Shown here one piece after another: positions 1 to 8,694 of a stretch of DNA of 64,000 nt (its first letter is position 1; each line of letters begins with the position of its first letter). The notes beneath the pieces are model-generated. The model worked only from the letters and a program-made list of their open reading frames with translations. It searched no databases and was not told the DNA's origin. The DNA is taken from assembly GCF_009377195.2 (NCBI RefSeq), contig NZ_VJXX01000004.1, forward strand, positions 1-64,000. Direction: 5' to 3'. This stretch comes from Arthrobacter bussei (GTDB taxonomy: Bacteria > Actinomycetota > Actinomycetes > Actinomycetales > Micrococcaceae). Both the position numbers and the translations under genes were made by a program.

Positions 1-127
1 CAATGGGCGGCTCGAGCACCTGCGTGGATCGGCTCTGGGCTTCAGGAACCTCACCCACTACATCGCCCGAAGCCTGCTCGAATCAGGCGGCTTCAGACCC
101 CACCTACACTCCTAATTACGAAGAGCC
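1..127 (+). mobile_element. 3' end of an ISL3-family insertion sequence (partial)
   Basis: The left edge holds the last codons of a transposase (2-115) followed at once by a terminal inverted repeat. Read outward, 109-127 is the complement of GGCTCTTCGTAATTAGGAG, and GGCTCTT is the usual start of ISL3-family ends (IS31831 type). The element therefore ends at about base 127. The next 8 bases, GCTTTGGC, would be one copy of the 8-bp target duplication expected for this family, but the other end lies outside the window, so this cannot be confirmed. The IS end lies 97 bases before the start of the DUF262 gene and may affect its expression. Family is inferred from the transposase tail and repeat motif. 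Confidence 0.75.
2..115 (+). CDS. ISL3-family transposase, C-terminal fragment
   Basis: This is an open frame entering from the left edge and ending with TAA at 113-115; 37 residues are visible. The segment contains GRLEHLRGSALGFRNL and then YIARSLLESGGFRP, the typical C-terminal tail of ISL3-family DDE transposases from actinobacteria. The catalytic residues are outside the window, so activity cannot be judged. The stop overlaps the terminal inverted repeat, as is normal in these elements. Confidence 0.75.
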   Translation, partial: NGRLEHLRGSALGFRNLTHYIARSLLESGGFRPHLHS

Positions 128-223
128 GCTTTGGCGCCAGCTCCGACTGATGGGCATATCACGTTCAACTGTTTATCCTGGCCTAGCAGAGCTTTCCCAA
201 GATATTGTGTCGGAGGAGATTTG

Positions 224-1330
224 ATGAGTGATGTACTTGAATCTGAAATTGCATCTGCTCGGAGGGAGGTGTCCGCGGACACGATCAGCATGTCGGTGAG
301 TGAGTTGACAAGCCTCTACAAAGAAGGGGTGCTGATAATCAGGCCAGAGTTTCAGCGGCTATTTCGCTGGAGCGCTGAGCAGAAAAGTCGGCTTGTGGAA
401 AGTATGATGTTAGGAATTCCTATTCCATCGATCTTTGTTTCACAAGACGAAGGTGGAAAATGGGAACTTGTAGATGGGCTACAGCGCGTTAGTACCCTGC
501 TCGAAATGCAAGGCCTCTTGGTCGATGCAAGCGGACAGCCGTTACCGGCTCTGACGCTGACTGCCACTCGGTATTTGAAAGGGCTCGAGGGCAAGATCTG
601 GGGCATGGACGGGACCCAGGGTCTGTCTTCAGCACAAATGCTTGACATGAGATTAGCTCGTTTAGACATTCGAGTGATCAAACGAAGTTCGGACCCAAAA
701 GCGAAATTTGACCTATTCCAGCGGCTCAATAGTTACGGTTCGGCACTTACTCCGCAAGAGATAAGAACAGCACTCATCGCGGGCATCAGTGGAGAAACAT
801 TGACTTGGCTCCATGGGCTGACAACGCATCCGGGATTGGTCGAGACGCTGGCGCTGGGTGATCGTCTTATCGATGAGCAATTTGACCTCGAACTGGTTCT
901 CCGATTTCTAATGCTGCATCAGCGGGAGTTGAAAGGAAAAAGAGGCGGCCTCGGGGATTTCCCAAGTAAGCTCAACGACTGGTCGATCGATTTCGCCGAA
1001 AATTTTCCCACAAACTCGAGTGAATACGCTGGCGTTTTTAAGTCAACATTCGACGTGCTTAGTCGCGAAGGTTCCGACCTTCTATTCAGGAAGTGGGATA
1101 CGAATACACGCACCTTCAGAGGAGGATTCTCAAGCACTTCTTTCGAAGCGATCGCAATTGGAATTGGATATCACATAGCGAATGGTTCAGCATACCGTGT
1201 TGATATTCTGGAGTGCGCCAAGGAGTTGTGGTCGACGCTCCCGACGACCCTTGGAACGACGACCGGATTGGCCACCGGAGATCGCTTTGCGAAGACCATA
1301 CCACTTGGACGAGCTCTAATGAGCGCCTGA
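224..1330 (+). CDS. DUF262 (GmrSD N-domain/ParB-like) protein
   Basis: The protein has 368 residues. ATG 224 is chosen because GGAGGAG sits 7 bases upstream; the open frame starts at 131 but that part is not family-like. Seen: FQRLFRW (residues 43-49), VDGLQRVSTL (83-92) and FQRLN followed by QEIR (165-181). These match the DUF262 motifs FQRxxxW, DGQQRxxTL and FxxLN, with DGLQR in place of the usual DGQQR. DUF262 domains occur in GmrSD, BrxU and SspE restriction-type proteins, where they bind nucleotide and sense or gate cleavage. No HNH/DUF1524 nuclease domain follows, so this protein probably senses or regulates rather than cuts. It is followed about 96 bases later by an ATPase-DUF4435 gene on the same strand. 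Its base composition is clearly AT-richer than later genes, suggesting transfer. Role in defence is inference. Confidence 0.85.
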   Translation: MSDVLESEIASARREVSADTISMSVSELTSLYKEGVLIIRPEFQRLFRWSAEQKSRLVESMMLGIPIPSIFVSQDEGGKWELVDGLQRVSTLLEMQGLLVDASGQPLPALTLTATRYLKGLEGKIWGMDGTQGLSSAQMLDMRLARLDIRVIKRSSDPKAKFDLFQRLNSYGSALTPQEIRTALIAGISGETLTWLHGLTTHPGLVETLALGDRLIDEQFDLELVLRFLMLHQRELKGKRGGLGDFPSKLNDWSIDFAENFPTNSSEYAGVFKSTFDVLSREGSDLLFRKWDTNTRTFRGGFSSTSFEAIAIGIGYHIANGSAYRVDILECAKELWSTLPTTLGTTTGLATGDRFAKTIPLGRALMSA

Positions 1331-1426
1331 CTCTTCGCGAGGCGCGGAGACAGAAAGCTCGATCTAGGCATTCCGTCGCCCAGTCAATACTGCCCGATAG
1401 CTCGTTACAATTAGGAATGGTGCCAG

Positions 1427-3019
1427 ATCAAGCTCAAAGAGGTTAGATTCACGAATTTCCGACGGTTCACGAATCTTTCGGTCAAGGACATCCCGCAGTC
1501 CGCACGCTTGATTGTCTTGGCGGGCCCAAACGGAGTCGGTAAGTCATCGTTTTTTGATGGCCTTCAAAGTTGGCATCGACTTAGAGCGTGGAATAGTGCT
1601 TACGCGGACGACGCCTACAGCGCCAAGGTTGGCGCAATAGATGCGTCGAATTGGTACGACCGCGTTGTTGTGGAAGTTTATGGTGACCCAAGGGATCAGG
1701 CTGCGCTTCAAAAAGGAGGTGTCTACTTTCGATCTGCTTATAGGCACGAAGCTAATTTCATGGTTCAGCCAATATCGCAACCGGAGTCACCAACAGGGCA
1801 GACTGCCAGAGAAAAACGCGCGATCGATGCGGATCAACAAGTAGCTCATAATTATCAACGCCTGTTATGGCAAACCTTTTCAGCAGTGTTCGACGAAACA
1901 ACCTCTGACGCGACGACAAAGGGTCAAATTCGGGACCGACTCATAGGGCAGCTGCGGGACGCGCTCCTGCGAATTTTTCCTGAACTGACTCTCACGCGTG
2001 TTGGAGCTGATGCGGGAGCAAACCCCTTCGAGTTCAGTAAGGGCTCCGCCATCGGCTTCCCCTATCTAAATTTATCTGCAGGAGAACGAGCGGTATTTGA
2101 TTTACTGCTGGATGCGGTGGTCAAAGCAGAGTTCTTTTCGGATGCTTTATGGTGCATAGATGAACCTGAAGTGCACATCGGAACTCGAGCGCAAGGCGCG
2201 TTACTTCGCGAACTTTTGTTGCTGGTTCCAAGTGAGTCGCAACTATTCATCGCGTCTCATAGCCTCGGTTTGATGAGCGAAGCCATGAGGATATCGAAGA
2301 CGAGCCAAGGGGAAGTAGTATTTCTTGATTTTGGAGATAGGGATTTCGATGAACCGGTAGTAATGAAGCCCGTGATCCCAAGTCGGGAATTTTGGAAAAA
2401 GGCCTTGTTGGTTGCGCTAGACGATGTTGCAACCCTCGTCGCACCATCTGTCCTAGTGATCTGCGAGGGCGGCGCGGACGGTTTTGATGCGAAGTGCTAC
2501 CGGACTATATTCGCAGGAGAGTTTCCGGATACGGATTTTTTGTCCGTGGGTAATAGTCGTGACGCCCAGGCTGACACGCTGGGTCTCACTTCCGCGATGC
2601 AGGCAGTATCGGAAGGCACACACATGATCCGTCTGCGGGATCGTGATCTAGCAAATGATGAAGAACTGTCGCAGTGGCGCTCGCAAGGAACGAAAGTTCT
2701 TACAAGACGCCATATCGAATGCTACCTCTATGACCCGGAGACTTTGGAAGCGTTCTGTGATGCCGTTGGCTTGCCTGAGGAGAAGTTGGCTGTGCTCGAG
2801 ATCAGACGTGTCGAATTAGAGCACTCTGTGCAGGATCGCGGAAATGATCCTGACGATTTGAAGTCCGCATCCGGAAGCATTTACTCATCTATCAGGAAGC
2901 ACCTGAAGCTGACCGCTAGAGGTTCGTCTGCTCGATCTTTTGCTGAGGTTAGCTTGGCTCCGCTCATTCAACCCGGTACGAAAGTTTATGATGAGCTCAA
3001 GCGGGACATTTTCGGTTAG
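1427..3019 (+). CDS. AAA ATPase fused to DUF4435/TOPRIM-like domain (PARIS AriA-AriB-like)
   Basis: Numbering here is from the first canonical start, TTG 1508 (503 residues). Walker A GPNGVGKSS (6-14), an ABC signature LSAGER (189-194), Walker B CIDEPEVHI (D218, E219) and H-loop ASHS (H251) define an SMC/ABC-type AAA domain. A C-terminal DUF4435-like segment follows: CEGGAD (E320), RLRDRD (D378, D380) and HIECYL (E404), consistent with TOPRIM acidic motifs. Fused ATPase-DUF4435 proteins are known as merged forms of the PARIS anti-phage system; this one is short. The usual N-terminal strand (VRFTNFRRFTNLSV) is encoded at 1442-1483, before any ATG, GTG or TTG in frame. ATC 1427, 9 bases after AGGAA, is the likeliest start; otherwise the start or an upstream base has mutated. 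AT-rich like the DUF262 gene, with which it probably forms an operon. Confidence 0.8.
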   Translation: MKLKEVRFTNFRRFTNLSVKDIPQSARLIVLAGPNGVGKSSFFDGLQSWHRLRAWNSAYADDAYSAKVGAIDASNWYDRVVVEVYGDPRDQAALQKGGVYFRSAYRHEANFMVQPISQPESPTGQTAREKRAIDADQQVAHNYQRLLWQTFSAVFDETTSDATTKGQIRDRLIGQLRDALLRIFPELTLTRVGADAGANPFEFSKGSAIGFPYLNLSAGERAVFDLLLDAVVKAEFFSDALWCIDEPEVHIGTRAQGALLRELLLLVPSESQLFIASHSLGLMSEAMRISKTSQGEVVFLDFGDRDFDEPVVMKPVIPSREFWKKALLVALDDVATLVAPSVLVICEGGADGFDAKCYRTIFAGEFPDTDFLSVGNSRDAQADTLGLTSAMQAVSEGTHMIRLRDRDLANDEELSQWRSQGTKVLTRRHIECYLYDPETLEAFCDAVGLPEEKLAVLEIRRVELEHSVQDRGNDPDDLKSASGSIYSSIRKHLKLTARGSSARSFAEVSLAPLIQPGTKVYDELKRDIFG

Positions 3020-3096
3020 TGTAGCTGCCGTAGGATTATATTCAACGAGTTCGGACTGCAGCAAGACAATTTCTGCCTGCCTTATGATGTCAATCG

Positions 3097-3116
3097 AATG
3101 ACATTATGTCATTTTT
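3097..3116 (+). terminator. AT-rich hairpin plus T-run after the ATPase gene
   Basis: AATGACA-TTA-TGTCATT forms a perfect 7-bp stem with a 3-base loop, followed by TTT. It lies 78 bases after the ATPase-DUF4435 stop. The stem is AT-rich and therefore weak; the same palindrome could be a protein-binding site. A second inverted repeat, TGTCGAG (3141-3147) with CTCGACA (3164-3170), lies just beyond. The rest of 3020-3281 shows no gene. Confidence 0.4.
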
Positions 3117-3281
3117 CCTGTGTGGTTAAAAATGACTGCATGTCGAGAAGTTTGGATAATCCCCTCGACAGCGAGCATCGCGTGAGCCGCCACAGACTAC
3201 TGGAATGGGTTGATCTTAGTTTTAGTCCACGGTGTTGAGTAATTACGCTCCAATTGGTCGCTTAGGGGGATGTGCGCGCCC

Positions 3282-4049
3282 TTAGGATAGAGGCCAAGGC
3301 ACTGCCGACGAGTGGCCTTGAGGGCCCGGCGCCCGCTTGGTTGCGCGTAAGGCCGAGCATCGACCGGTCAGCGCGGAGATCTCCTCGGCGGTGAGCAGAC
3401 CTGCCAGGTCTCGGCCCAGCGTTTCCTTCAGGCCGCTTCGGACGCGGTCGATACCCTCGAGCTCCTCAGCGGTCAGCTGTTCGCCGACCCAGCCCCAGAG
3501 CACCGTCCGCAGCTTGTGCTCGCTGTGGAAAGTCAGGCCGTGGTCCACGCCGTAGCGGTGGCCGTCCTTCATGGCGAGGATGTGGTCGCCCTTGCGGTCC
3601 GCGTTGTTGACGATCACGTCGAACACCGCCATGCGGCGCAGCGCTGCGGTGTCCTCGTGAACCAGCGCGACGGTCCGTCCGGCGTCGTCCTGCCCCTCGA
3701 GCACGTGCTTCCACCCGGTCTCCGGCACCTCGTCCGCCGGCATGAGGTCCACGGCGTCCTGCTCGGGGTCGGGCTCCTGCCAGAGCTGCACCATGCCCTC
3801 GCCCAGCGGGCCGTCGCGCAGCCAGGTCTTGGGCACGATGTTCCAGCCCATCGCCTCGGACACGAGATAGGCCGCCACCTCGCGGTGCGCCAGGCAGCCG
3901 TCGGGGAAGTCCCACAGCGGCTTCTCGCTGCGGATCGGTTTGTACACGACGGTCTGGTCGCCGACGCTGCCGACGAGCGTGGCGTTGGACGCCGTCCTGA
4001 TGCGGCCGGTGAGCGTGAGCTCGTCGGTCATCAGGTCGGTGCCGGCCAT
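3282..4049 (-). CDS. SCO1664 family (PI3/4-kinase-like fold) protein
   Basis: The protein has 255 residues. SCO1664-family proteins are actinobacterial, with a phosphatidylinositol-kinase-like fold; their function is not established. Visible motifs are VVYKPIRSEKPLWDFP with a conserved lysine (around residue 37), the conserved HREVAAYLVSEAMGW, and VFDVIVNNADRKGDHIL, the catalytic-loop-like segment. ATG 4049 overlaps the stop of the upstream DUF3090 frame by one base (TGATG), so the two were translationally coupled; a second ATG at residue 7 is also possible. In other actinobacteria the usual order is histidine phosphatase (MSMEG_4193 type), DUF3090, SCO1664. Here the phosphatase is missing and DUF3090 is broken, so this gene is the intact remainder of the set. 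The C-terminal 25 residues are low-complexity and atypical. Confidence 0.85.
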   Translation of the reverse strand: MAGTDLMTDELTLTGRIRTASNATLVGSVGDQTVVYKPIRSEKPLWDFPDGCLAHREVAAYLVSEAMGWNIVPKTWLRDGPLGEGMVQLWQEPDPEQDAVDLMPADEVPETGWKHVLEGQDDAGRTVALVHEDTAALRRMAVFDVIVNNADRKGDHILAMKDGHRYGVDHGLTFHSEHKLRTVLWGWVGEQLTAEELEGIDRVRSGLKETLGRDLAGLLTAEEISALTGRCSALRATKRAPGPQGHSSAVPWPLS

Positions 4050-4546
4050 CAGGCCTCGGGGAGGGTGCAGGTGTGGCCGTCGGCGTCGATCGGCTGGCCG
4101 CAGATCACGCAGATGGGGCGGCCTGCGCCCACCACCTCGCGGGTCCGCTTCGAGAAAGCGCGGGCGGTGCCCACGGGCATCCGCACCACGAGCATCTCGG
4201 CCGCCTCGGCGTCCTCGTCATCCGCTGAGAGCATCGCGTTGATGTCGTCTGTGTCCACCTCGGTGATGGGGTAGGCCTCTACCACGATCTGCGCCGTTGT
4301 CGGGTCCCAGCCCAGGCTCATCGCACCGGTGCGGAACTGCTCCTCCACCGGGTCCAGCTGGTCGTTGTCGACGAGCTCGATCGGCGTGGTGCTCGGGACG
4401 TGGAAGGGGTTGCCGTCGAGGGCGATGAGCTAGTCGAGGATCTAGTCGACCTTCTCGGTGAGCTGCGGCAACTGCTGCTTCTCGAAGGCGATGCTCACGA
4501 TCTGCTTCTCCGTGCGCATCTGGAGGTAAACGTGCGTGCGGTCGGC
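4049..4546 (-). pseudogene. DUF3090 family gene with in-frame stops
   Basis: Read continuously on the minus strand, the frame gives HVYLQMRTEKQIVSIAFEKQ, then KVD-stop-ILD-stop-LIAL, then NPFHVPSTTPIELVDND and VEEQFRTGAMSLGWDPTTAQ to the normal C-terminus with a CxxC pair (CVICGQ). This is the DUF3090 family along its length. Two TAG codons (4442-4444 and 4430-4432 on the plus strand) stand where the family has GAG (KVDEILDEL), and a TGA lies at 4547-4549 further upstream; the N-terminus is not recognisable. A GTG at 4346-4348 could restart a 99-residue C-terminal fragment (4049-4348), which stays coupled to the SCO1664 gene. The two identical G-to-T changes 12 bases apart are odd; a sequencing error is less likely than decay, given the missing N-terminus. 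Confidence 0.8.
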
Positions 4547-4597
4547 TCAGCCGGCTGGGGGAACAAGCACGCCACTGATGCGTTAGCATCGATGTAT

Positions 4598-4733
4598 CAA
4601 GGGGAGTACTCCCGTCTGTGATCGGCCCGTCAATACGGATGCACTGAAGCATCCCGGGCCCGTCGGTTCCGGTTCGTCCGGGCGGAGGAGACCTTGGCGC
4701 CCATCCGACGCCGACCTCCTTTGGAGTACCTCC
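4598..4733 (+). ncRNA. yybP-ykoY manganese riboswitch upstream of terC
   Basis: The leader has the landmarks of RF00080 as found before actinobacterial TerC genes: GGGGAGTACTCCCG at the 5' side (4601-4614), CCCGTCAATACGG in the middle, and GGCGGAGGAGACCTTGGCG near 4680-4699, carrying the conserved GAGACCTT. The 3' strand CTCCTTTGGAGTACCTCC (about 4716-4733) can pair with the 5' GGGGAGTACTCCC, and it contains the GGAG that would serve as ribosome-binding site. This suggests translational control by Mn2+. A TAGCAT at 4584-4589 could be the -10 element. Confidence 0.8.
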
Positions 4734-5807
4734 GTGGACATCTCTCCCACAATCTGGCTGATCACCATCGCGGTGACCATCGCCTTCTTCGTCTATGAAT
4801 TCTTCGCGCACGTGCGCACGCCCCACGAACCGACCATCGGTGAATCAGCCCGCTGGTCCGCCTTCTACATAGGCCTCGCCCTTCTCTTCGGCGTGGTGAT
4901 CGGCCAAGTGTGGGGCTGGGACTTCGGCGGTGAGTACTACGCCGGGTACCTGACCGAGAAGGCACTCTCGATCGACAACCTCTTCGTGTTCCTGATCGTC
5001 ATGACCGGCTTCGCAGTACCCAAGAAGTACCAGCAGAAGGTGCTGATGATCGGCATCATCATCGCGCTGATCCTCCGCGGAGCGTTCATCGCCATCGGCG
5101 CCGGCCTGATCGAGAACTTCTCCTGGATCTTCTACATCTTCGGCGCGCTGCTCCTCTTCCTCGCCTACAAGCAGGCCTTCGGCAGCCACGACTCCAACCC
5201 GGCCGACGGCAAGTTCATGCAGCTGGTCCGCCGCGTGCTCCCCGTCACGGACGAGTACCACGAGGACAAGCTCACCGTGAAGAAGGACGGCAAGCGCTGG
5301 GTCACCCCGATGCTGCTCACCATCATCGCGATCGGCTTCGTGGACCTGATCTTCGCCGTCGACTCCATCCCCGCGATCTACGGCCTCACCGAGCAGGCGT
5401 ACATCGTGTTCACGGCCAACGCCTTCGCCCTCATGGGCCTCCGCCAGCTGTACTTCCTCATCGGCGGCCTGCTGGAACGCCTCGTCTACCTGGCGCAGGG
5501 CCTCGCCGTGATCCTCGCCTTCATCGGTGTGAAGCTCGTGTTCCACGCCCTGCACGTCAACGAACTGCCCTTCATCAACGGCGGCGAGCCGCTCCTCTGG
5601 GTCCCCGAGATCCCCATCTCCGTGTCGCTTCTCTTCATCCTGGCGACCATCACCGTGGCCACCATCGCGAGCCTCATCAAGACCCGGGGCGACGCGGCGA
5701 AGAAGGACCGCGACGAGGTTGAGGGCGAGCCCGTCGCCACCGCTGAGGGAACGGGCATCGAGTCCGGGCTCGACGATGACAAGAGCAGCGCGACCAGCCG
5801 TAAGTAA
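4734..5807 (+). CDS. TerC family integral membrane protein
   Basis: The protein has 357 residues. TerC/Alx proteins are multi-pass inner-membrane proteins linked to tellurite resistance and Mn2+ export. Several hydrophobic segments are visible, with the family motifs EKALSIDNLFVFLIVM (about residues 75-90), FVDLIFAVDSIPAIYG (about 203-218) and FTANAFALMGLRQLYFL. The acidic residues in the DNLFV and DLIFAVDS motifs are the conserved metal-site candidates. The C-terminus is a charged cytoplasmic tail rich in D, E, K and S. GTG 4734 is the start, with GGAG about 11 bases upstream inside the riboswitch 3' strand. The Mn2+ riboswitch directly upstream supports a Mn2+ export role, perhaps also in folding of exported metalloproteins. 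Monocistronic; a hairpin follows. Confidence 0.92.
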   Translation: MDISPTIWLITIAVTIAFFVYEFFAHVRTPHEPTIGESARWSAFYIGLALLFGVVIGQVWGWDFGGEYYAGYLTEKALSIDNLFVFLIVMTGFAVPKKYQQKVLMIGIIIALILRGAFIAIGAGLIENFSWIFYIFGALLLFLAYKQAFGSHDSNPADGKFMQLVRRVLPVTDEYHEDKLTVKKDGKRWVTPMLLTIIAIGFVDLIFAVDSIPAIYGLTEQAYIVFTANAFALMGLRQLYFLIGGLLERLVYLAQGLAVILAFIGVKLVFHALHVNELPFINGGEPLLWVPEIPISVSLLFILATITVATIASLIKTRGDAAKKDRDEVEGEPVATAEGTGIESGLDDDKSSATSRK

Positions 5808-5955: not shown

Positions 5956-7269
5956 TCAGCAGGCCACAGGGTCCCCGGAGGGGAGAGTCGATCCGCTGAT
6001 CAGCCAGGCCTCTCCGTTCCAGGCGAAGGAGTAGCGGAGCAACCAGTCCGAACACGTCTGGCCCAGCCTGCCGTCGTCGGAATCCTGCTCGGTCAGGAGA
6101 CGGACGTCCGCCGAGAGGGCATCACCTGTTCCCTCGACGCTCGTCACGTCGAGTGCCCGCCAGTAGGAGCTGCCGAGCTGCGCGCTCCATCTCTCCCTGC
6201 TGCCGAAGGACCGTTGGAGTTCCGGCGTGAACTGGTTGTACGCAGCACCGTAGGCGCCGACGTTGATGCCCTGACCGTGAAGAAGCAGGGCCTGGCCGAT
6301 ATTGCGCGCCTGATCATGATCGGAGGCGATGCTCAGGGGGAAAAATCCTTCGTCCGGCGCGGGAGCGTTCCCGCAGTCGACGGGATCAAGGGGCACGGGT
6401 CTTTCCTGCCATTCGATCGCGGCCGCTTCCGCCCGGAAACCCGATACCGCGTAGGCCATCCCCTCGGCGCGTTCGTCCCCGTTCAGTCCAACGGCGCTGA
6501 CGACACCGGCTACCAGGCCGTCCTGCGTCAGCAGGGGCCCGCCACTGTTCCCGGGATTGACGGCCGCATCCGTCTGGATGATGTTCTGCACCGAACCGGC
6601 GCCCAGATTGATCTCCCTGTCCAGCCCGCTCACCGTTCCGCGCGTGAATCCCAACGGTTCTCCCAGCGGGAACCCGAGTGCCGCCACGTCCGTCCCCAAC
6701 GGGGGATCTACCGGTTCGAAGCCGAAAAGGTGCCCGTCGAGCGGCCTGCTCGTCTGCACGAGCGCCAGGTCCGCGAGTTCGTTGATGCCGAGGACCGACG
6801 CCGGGGTGTTGCCCTGTGCGGTGGAGATGCCGATCACCGAGGCGTCGGCGACCACGTGCGCCGCCGTCACCACGAGGTCGGGGGCGATCAGGAAGCCGGA
6901 TCCTGTACTGCTGCTCTCGCAGGTGGTCACGCTGAACTGCACGACGCCCGACTGCACCTCCTCGATGGTCTGCGGCCAGGTTGCTGGTGCCGGCGAGGAA
7001 GGCGCCGTCGTCGGTCCTGCAGCCGGAGCGGGCAGGGTCGTCGGGCCGGAGGGAGCAGGTACCTCGGCGGCCGGTTCGGTCGTGGGAGGCGGTGGCGGAG
7101 GAGGCGGCGAGGTCGACGGGCCGGTCCCGGGATCTCCAGCGACGGGCGACGCGGGAGGAGGATCGTCAGCGGCGGTAGGACCGACCACGATGCACCCGGT
7201 CAGTCCGAGAACTGCCAGAGCCGTGGGGCCGATCAGGAGGAAGGTCCTCGGAGTGGATGTCGCCGTCAT
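5956..7269 (-). CDS. Trypsin-like (S1C/HtrA-type) serine protease lipoprotein
   Basis: The protein has 437 residues. ATG 7269 is preferred over the longer frame because GGAGG lies 6 bases upstream and a lipoprotein signal starts there: a hydrophobic stretch ending in LTGC, cysteine 26. A Pro/Thr-rich linker follows (about 35-100), with a run of eight prolines. The protease domain shows TAAHVV (H138), ELADLALV (D167) and NPGNSGGPLL (S242), the complete catalytic triad. No PDZ domain follows; instead there is a C-terminal region of about 150 residues ending in a cysteine pair region that I do not recognise. It is probably tethered to the outer face of the membrane and cleaves or quality-controls exported proteins. 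It stands alone, between the terC hairpin and the thermonuclease gene on the same strand. Confidence 0.88.
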   Translation of the reverse strand: MTATSTPRTFLLIGPTALAVLGLTGCIVVGPTAADDPPPASPVAGDPGTGPSTSPPPPPPPPTTEPAAEVPAPSGPTTLPAPAAGPTTAPSSPAPATWPQTIEEVQSGVVQFSVTTCESSSTGSGFLIAPDLVVTAAHVVADASVIGISTAQGNTPASVLGINELADLALVQTSRPLDGHLFGFEPVDPPLGTDVAALGFPLGEPLGFTRGTVSGLDREINLGAGSVQNIIQTDAAVNPGNSGGPLLTQDGLVAGVVSAVGLNGDERAEGMAYAVSGFRAEAAAIEWQERPVPLDPVDCGNAPAPDEGFFPLSIASDHDQARNIGQALLLHGQGINVGAYGAAYNQFTPELQRSFGSRERWSAQLGSSYWRALDVTSVEGTGDALSADVRLLTEQDSDDGRLGQTCSDWLLRYSFAWNGEAWLISGSTLPSGDPVAC

Positions 7270-7476
7270 CGTGCGCCTCCTGGAGCTGCGCCCACTGACA
7301 ACCGTCGCGGGCCCGGAAGGCAAAGGTAGGAGTTCGGGACGGCCGAGTCCACGGAATCCGAGGACTCGAGTACTACCTGTCTTCCCGTTCGCGCCGATGG
7401 AGGTGGGAACACCCGTCCGTAGCGAGTACGGGCGGTGGCTGCAGAGGTGCCGTTCCGACGAGCGTCGCCGCCGGGA

Positions 7477-8694
7477 TCAGCAGGGGCGCCAGGTCTTCCC
7501 GCCCGGCGCGTAGCACCGGGGCCCGGTGCAGCCCGGGTAGGGGTTGTCCGCCGCCGGAGGAGCCGGCGGGGCAGGCGCCGGAGGGATGTACGGGGCAGGA
7601 GCGGGCGGGAGGTTGGCGATCCGGTCACGTTCCGCTGCTTCGGCCGCGAGACGGTCCGCTTCCGCGCGGGCAGTCGCCTCGGCGGCAACCCGCTCGGCCT
7701 CCGCGGCAATCCGGTCGGCTTCCGCGCGGGCGGCAGCCTCTGCGGCGACCCGTTCTGCCTCGACCCGGGCGGCTTCCGCGACCCGGGCCGCCTCCGCTTC
7801 GGCGGCGGCCTTCGCCGCGGCTTCCTTCTCCGCCGTCCGCTGGGCGGCAGCGTCGGCCGCGCGGAAGGACTCGGCCTTGCCGGTGGCTGTCGTCAGGGCC
7901 CGCTCGCCCTCGGTGATCCTCCGGTCGAGATCGGCCAGCAGGGACGCCGAGCCCGCGGTGCCCAGCGCAAGCACGCGGACGGTGTCCTTTCCGGCGTTCA
8001 CGCTCTCGCGGACGGCCTTCGCCGCTGCGAGGGCAGCGACGATCCCTGCCGCCGTGGCCGACGCGGAGTCCGCCGAATCGCCCACCGACGCCGCGGTCGC
8101 TGCCGCCAGGGCCTGCAGGGCGTCCTCCGCCTCGGCGGGGAGGGTGCAGGCGGCAGCCGGGTCCATGAGGCCCACCCCCTGCGCCGTCGCCTCGGCGTAC
8201 GCGGCCTGGACGTCGTCGTAGTACTTCCGGTTCGGCTCGATCAGGACCGGCACGCCGAGTCCCACGCGGGCTAGCTCCGCATTGACGAGGGTCGTGTCCT
8301 CGATGAAGACGGCGGCGAGGACGCGGTCGTACCGGTCCGTGCGTTCGACGTCGAAGTCCAGGCCTACTTCCGTACCGGGCGGCGTCAACGATTCCAGCTC
8401 CTCGGTCGCCTCCAGCCCGAGGCATTCGACGGGCTTGTCCGGGTGCTTGGTCTCGGGGGTGTCGACGTTGAGCAGGCGGACGGTCTGGTCGTCGCCGTCG
8501 AAGGCGATGACGAGCGTGTCGCCGTCGATCACGCGGACCACGGTCCCCGGCGTGTAGGCGGTGCCCTCCCCGGCTCCGTCAGCGGTGGTCGCCGCAGCGT
8601 CGGTGGGCGAGGTGCAGCCGGTCAGCGTCGACGACGCGATCGCCGCAGTTAGGAAGGCGGCAGGGAGGAGGGCGCGGAGGCGAGGGGAGGTCAT
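7477..8694 (-). CDS. Thermonuclease (SNase-like) lipoprotein with Ala-rich coiled coil
   Basis: The protein has 405 residues. The N-terminus is a lipoprotein signal ending LTGC (C27). An SNase domain follows (about 48-180): VVRVIDGDTL (D57, D59), RLLNVDTPE (R73, E81) and DRYDRVLA (R124) match the Ca2+-binding and catalytic residues of staphylococcal nuclease. Residues about 285-365 are a long Ala/Glu/Arg coiled coil of near-repeats (AEAERVAAEA, ARAEADRIAAEA). A Pro-rich linker leads to a Cys-containing C-terminus, YPGCTGPRCYAPGGKTWRPC, a cap often seen on secreted actinobacterial nucleases. Likely role: extracellular cleavage of DNA or RNA while held at the cell surface. A possible remnant of a related gene lies just upstream at about 8900-8972. 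Confidence 0.9.
   Translation of the reverse strand: MTSPRLRALLPAAFLTAAIASSTLTGCTSPTDAAATTADGAGEGTAYTPGTVVRVIDGDTLVIAFDGDDQTVRLLNVDTPETKHPDKPVECLGLEATEELESLTPPGTEVGLDFDVERTDRYDRVLAAVFIEDTTLVNAELARVGLGVPVLIEPNRKYYDDVQAAYAEATAQGVGLMDPAAACTLPAEAEDALQALAAATAASVGDSADSASATAAGIVAALAAAKAVRESVNAGKDTVRVLALGTAGSASLLADLDRRITEGERALTTATGKAESFRAADAAAQRTAEKEAAAKAAAEAEAARVAEAARVEAERVAAEAAARAEADRIAAEAERVAAEATARAEADRLAAEAAERDRIANLPPAPAPYIPPAPAPPAPPAADNPYPGCTGPRCYAPGGKTWRPC

Follow-up and report, generated by a model that had tools for sequence, protein, structure and literature searches.

Two adjacent defense-type genes at the left end of the Arthrobacter bussei DNA analyzed here, a DUF262 gene and a gene for a fused ATPase-TOPRIM protein, are best read as an orphan DUF262 gene, its HEPN partner missing, beside a self-contained fused AriAB-type gene on a small piece of mobile defense DNA at about 128 to 3275, a reading to which we give a probability of roughly 0.6. 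Comparison with relatives suggests that each gene belongs to a known family of its own and that the two are neighbors here by chance, rather than forming a new two-gene system. The window, that is the whole stretch of 64,000 nucleotides, comprises bases 1 to 64000 of contig C34 in a genome of 3.63 Mb.

Locus setting and borders

Since the window starts at base 1 of contig C34, its first base is a contig edge. The contig starts within an ISL3-family insertion sequence, of which the right end is present (end of the transposase frame plus terminal sequence, bases 1 to 127, forward strand). Among the best 12 of 61 matches, these bases were 78 to 85% identical to plasmid records, several of them labeled ISL3 transposase; their Pfam match to ISL3 had a value of 0.081, which misses the cut-off. 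Identical copies were found in the same genome at C18:549493-549619 and C29:1-125. The C29 copy is located at a contig edge and the C18 copy 475 bases from a contig end, and such identical ISL3-type ends may be the cause of the assembly breaks.

On the right side, DNA shared within the genus resumes, with 79 to 82% identity to 7 of 7 genus relatives fetched from about 3275-3292 onward. The border region (3275 to 4348, reverse strand) carries a gene with a PI3/PI4-kinase Pfam match, which we take to be SCO1664-like, and a truncated DUF3090 gene without the first ~80 positions of the Pfam model. A second copy of this SCO1664-DUF3090 region (window 3282-4348), ~81% identical, lies at C18:149664-150813 of the same genome, and ~0.9 kb found between DUF3090 and TerC in several genus relatives are absent from the window.

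The GC content of the first 3 kb is 51 to 52%, with 51% for both genes, compared to 69.6% for bases 10001 to 64000, which bears out the GC-poor block with two same-strand frames described in the sequence-only reading that preceded this analysis. The DUF262 and AriAB-type frames, both open throughout, share a strand and are separated by 96 bases in which no terminator-like site was seen. The genes are also alike in GC content and codon use. Equal GC was considered as evidence of linkage and dropped, because the relatives of both families are GC-poor too. The two genes probably lie in a short foreign stretch beside an insertion sequence, a place where unrelated defense genes can easily end up adjacent.

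The DUF262 gene and its HEPN-paired relatives

The first gene (224 to 1330, forward strand) encodes a DUF262 protein of 368 amino acids, as had been read from its motifs; FQR, DGLQR, and FQRLN are present in its translation. The GmrSD_N domain (Pfam, 4e-23) spans residues 26 to 185 and is the sole Pfam match above the cut-off. DUF262 is common to GmrSD, BrxU, SspE, Menshen, Dazbog, and PD-T4-2 (PMC10952713). The DUF1524 (HNH) nuclease domain that occurs with DUF262 in GmrSD, BrxU, and SspE was not found in gene 1 by Pfam. Among PADLOC models, NsnA scored best (7.5e-44) and PD-T4-2_A matched as well (1.4e-24). A whole-genome search with the DUF262 family gave two matches, both fragments of gene 1 itself, and gene 1 as query found no sequence match in the PDB and none in viral contigs.

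The plasmid search with gene 1 gave 715 matching records, the best 40 of which were listed and 8 fetched (46 to 27% identity). A HEPN gene stood directly behind DUF262 in seven of these eight, L014 being the sole plasmid relative without a HEPN match. Six of the plasmid loci served to build the HEPN profile, and a locus was labeled "other" when the next gene matched neither the HEPN nor the AAA profile; L013 initially received this label since its HEPN gene spans the record origin. Genome relatives at E ≤ 1e-35 were found in the class (G534, G639, G697, and G856, among 394 genomes) and the order (G089, G907, and G063, among 218 genomes), with none in 396 genomes of the phylum, and each of the seven had a HEPN match downstream. 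At a looser cut-off, a DUF262 match was present in 47 of the 394 class genomes, the window's own counted, and many of the more distant genes were followed by an AAA gene in a Menshen-like manner.

The phylogenetic tree of DUF262 was calculated from 45 rows, after removal of 9 rows under 270 amino acids from 54; L010 (split frame) and the duplicates L126 and L132 had been excluded earlier. The window gene grouped with two HEPN-paired Corynebacterium plasmid genes (100/100) within a nine-row clade (99/97), the other eight members of which are all HEPN-paired, seven by label and L013 by its origin-spanning HEPN gene. The 13 AAA-paired rows of Menshen type formed a separate group (99/99). The window DUF262 belongs to the HEPN-paired, PD-T4-2-like group and is of the same length as its members. 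MAE_28990 HEPN genes have been described in an operon with genes for ParB-type (ParB-fold) nucleases, DUF262 being named there as ParB (Anantharaman et al. 2013, PMC3710099).

In comparison to the DUF262-HEPN loci, no HEPN gene lies behind gene 1 in the window, and the gene directly after it is of the AriAB type. No match to the HEPN profile at E ≤ 10 and no tblastn match under E 0.16 was obtained in bases 1 to 5000, and with the Corynebacterium HEPN protein alone as query no relative of it was found in the genome (best E 0.17), so that a HEPN gene of another family may be present. With the contig edge at base 1, an upstream partner could lie beyond the visible sequence. The window DUF262 is probably a gene that lost its HEPN effector.

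Several other arrangements were observed around DUF262 genes. In six loci (L090, L091, L093, L096, L099, and L102), DUF262 is followed within ~20 bases by proteins of 155 to 211 amino acids without a match to the HEPN profile, which may be other small DUF262-paired effectors. The Psychrobacter plasmid locus L009 (1-561 and 5001-9199) carries a DUF262-HEPN pair and a restriction system of the BsuBI/PstI type, with a DUF4435 gene at a distance of ~4 kb. In L095 (~6687-7834), a very long low-complexity tract follows a short DUF262 match near the contig end; several of its frames consist of Cys-Val and Ala-Arg runs, and the DNA may be foreign or misassembled.

The second gene and the fused AriAB form of PARIS

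The second gene occupies an open frame at 1415 to 3019 of the forward strand. Its ATPase half (1427 to 2356) carries the Walker A motif GPNGVGK (~1523-1543), the signature LSAGE, the Walker B motif CIDEPE (acids at ~2159-2164), and an H-loop histidine. The AriB/DUF4435-type TOPRIM half including the stop codon (2357 to 3019) has a Glu codon at 2465, Asp codons at 2639 and 2645, and a further Glu codon at 2717. All motifs and the three TOPRIM acids named in the sequence-only reading were recovered, the acids being E350, D408, and D410 if numbered from base 1418 and E320, D378, and D380 in the earlier numbering. The Walker A Lys, signature Ser, Walker B Asp-Glu, H-loop His, and the three acids were invariant in 33 of 33 aligned sequences, i.e., the window and 32 of 39 strong loci, with partial or broken loci excluded (L024, L037, L042, L044, L046, L048, and L050).

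Pfam assigned AAA_21 (3.1e-12) and AAA_15 (4.6e-8) to gene 2. The best PADLOC model was AriAB (6.8e-22, 75.9 bits; the fusion profiles of Rousset et al. are separate ones, with score thresholds of 80 and 20), and NsnB also matched (2.6e-11). The AriAB model matched all 33 family members, and the models for AriA, PtuA, mad3, and NsnB likewise did, so that the label AriAB denotes the best rank and is not exclusive. With the C-terminal half, AriAB was the sole PADLOC match at E ≤ 10, and AriB was the best structural match of its predicted structure. The Foldseek search with this half returned nothing at E ≤ 0.001, with GajA at rank 3 (E 0.14), and the window gene fell short of the Pfam DUF4435 model. 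Since neither AriB nor any other TOPRIM protein was among the 10 matches of the PDB sequence search with the C-terminal profile, the link to AriB is based on the structure prediction, on the AriAB model of PADLOC, and on the DUF4435 matches in relatives. These results support what had been proposed for gene 2: a compact ATPase fused to a TOPRIM protein of the AriB type, similar to PARIS in its fused AriAB form.

PARIS, which consists of two genes or of a single-gene fusion, is triggered by Ocr, an anti-restriction protein (Rousset et al. 2022, PMC9122126). AriA has been assigned to the OLD-type ABC ATPases (PMC12839542), and AriB is a tRNA-cutting TOPRIM nuclease for which two metal ions were proposed (PMC12409363). 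As in fused AriAB, the predicted protein of gene 2 joins an AriA-type ABC ATPase to an AriB/DUF4435-type TOPRIM half with conserved Glu and DxD acids, and it is encoded by a solo gene. Both halves that define membership, the ATPase and the TOPRIM with its acids, were found. In contrast to the known fusion, gene 2 is compact, with ~530 amino acids versus the 694 positions of the PADLOC AriAB model; the window copy stays below Pfam DUF4435 and is without a standard start codon. The fused form itself has already been described for PARIS (Rousset et al. 2022). The ATPases of Retron and Septu PtuA systems differ from the window in that no PtuB-type gene lies in the two-gene block and the C-terminal half is an AriB-type TOPRIM.

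Menshen, with the gene names NsnA-NsnB-NsnC as used in PADLOC, resembles the window in that an ATPase gene comes after the gene for a DUF262 protein. Its DUF262 is of another group, whereas in the window the ATPase is AriAB-like and TOPRIM-fused and there is no third gene. Membership in Menshen was rejected because gene 1 is placed outside the 13-row AAA-paired group, and the top rank of NsnA therefore does not make gene 1 a Menshen gene. A condensed Menshen composed of NsnA and a fused NsnB-NsnC, to which the NsnA rank of gene 1 and the NsnB match of gene 2 would point, is very improbable given this position in the tree, the better score of gene 2 with AriAB, and a C-terminal half that matches AriAB alone in PADLOC.

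The start of the AriAB-type gene

Gene 2 is homologous to its relatives from 1427 onward, whereas the numbering in the sequence-only reading implies a start 27 codons later, at the TTG of position 1508. That start is corrected here, as initiation at 1508 would remove the first strands of the ATPase. At the conserved start position, all 35 relatives inspected have ATG (23), GTG (7), or TTG (5), and the window has ATC (1427-1429, forward strand); the relatives comprise 33 of the 39 genome loci together with L004 and L005, L004 being the same place as L018. As an in-frame TAG precedes it at 1412-1414, gene 2 is without an ordinary start codon at this position. The ATC could be a non-canonical codon with weak initiation, the remnant of a start that was lost, or an assembly error at this base, and the window copy may be weakly made or decaying.

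Alternatively, the two-gene block would be dead or dying mobile DNA, with an AriAB-type gene that lost its start and a DUF262 gene that lost HEPN, neither working now. The ATC at a position occupied by a start codon in all 35 relatives inspected is compatible with this, as are the HEPN gene that was not found, the insertion sequence at the edge, and the frames broken in 3 of 39 relatives (L024, L044, and L048). We regard it as unlikely, because the two frames are open over the rest of their length, the catalytic residues of gene 2 have been kept, and initiation at ATC may be weak, not necessarily absent.

Recurrence of the pair

The genome contig scan for the gene 2 family returned 41 matches, 39 strong and 2 weak. 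Eight further relatives were found in viral contigs and one on a plasmid, giving 48 loci together with the 39 genome loci. With gene 2 alone as query, no relative was obtained in viral contigs and no match in phage records. A relative is carried by 2 of 149 order genomes, the window's own and one that is the same place as L018, and by at least 1 of 394 class genomes (the window's own), 3 of 15 to 43 first-look candidates having been scored per listed genome. According to record titles, the compact fused AriAB family is present in several phyla.

The sequence-only reading had joined DUF262 and the AriAB-like protein into one cassette. This proposal failed the check for recurrent adjacency: by DUF262 profile, none of the 44 loci with more than 1.2 kb upstream, of 48, had DUF262 as a neighbor of the gene 2 relative, and gene 1 groups with HEPN-partnered genes. 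The sole DUF262 frame near any relative was ~6.9 kb off, in L043. Conversely, an AriAB-type partner was found in 0 of 15 close DUF262 relatives fetched. From the 44 loci it follows that the AriAB-type family usually stands without DUF262. A limited literature search found no description of a pair of DUF262 and fused AriAB.

Close to the earlier proposal is a partner swap, by which a DUF262 sensor traded its HEPN effector for the fused AriAB and a real hybrid operon arose. The common strand, the 96-base gap without a terminator-like site, and the similar composition would suit such an operon, and DUF262 genes of the broad group do precede different partners, HEPN or AAA. We nevertheless consider it quite improbable, as the arrangement was seen a single time and in none of the 44 informative AriAB loci or the 15 close relatives of the DUF262 gene that were fetched, and gene 2 lacks a standard start codon. 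Slightly less probable still is a recent effector swap, in which DUF262 as a ParB-fold NTPase sensor would now drive the fused AriAB TOPRIM and the weak ATC start would keep the effector low. The orphan DUF262 gene beside a self-contained AriAB-type gene is preferred over both.

Restriction genes beside the AriAB-type family

By raw count, 11 of the 39 genome loci had a restriction-type gene directly adjoining the AriAB-type gene, of which 9 were assigned by Pfam and 2 by similarity. The direct neighbors were hsdS (L021, L025, L040, and L045), hsdR (L025 and L038), Res-type genes (L022 and L053), a LlaJI-type nuclease gene (L028), a gene for an SNF2/PLD restriction-type protein (L029), and those assigned by similarity (L052 and L048). 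In L025, hsdS and hsdR flank the AriAB-type gene on its two sides, the gaps being 6 and 5 bases. The remaining 28 loci had no direct restriction-type neighbor among the frames examined. The neighbor scan covered 116 of 142 picked frames, with genes taken as the longest non-overlapping frames, and the figure of 11 loci was obtained from 10 chosen frames scanned singly and from similarity.

Elsewhere in the genome of the window, a type I-like restriction locus is located at C39:219765-223295 (PF02384 and ResIII matches). Its N6-methylase domain (PF02384, C39:219765-220759) is split over two open frames of 387 and 236 amino acids near the ResIII frame, possibly an interrupted hsdM.

Implications for the AriAB-type family

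The AriAB-type protein most likely acts alone, without DUF262. Its AriB-type TOPRIM nuclease at the C-terminus would be held inactive by an ABC ATPase of the OLD/PtuA/AriA type and freed by a phage product, which is probably a restriction inhibitor. The freed nuclease would then cleave host RNA, comparable to the tRNA cleavage by AriB, and growth would stop. Whether now or in the past, the window copy may have functioned in this way.

The locus illustrates that reading a single locus can turn two known kinds of defense genes into an apparent new system, and that the PADLOC model NsnA can rank top for a DUF262 protein whose close relatives pair with HEPN and not with Menshen genes. The position of the AriAB family beside or inside restriction operons in part of its loci fits the idea of PARIS-like genes guarding restriction systems and makes it testable. 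The AriAB-type family may accordingly be a self-contained guard that would release an RNA-cutting TOPRIM nuclease upon attack on restriction.
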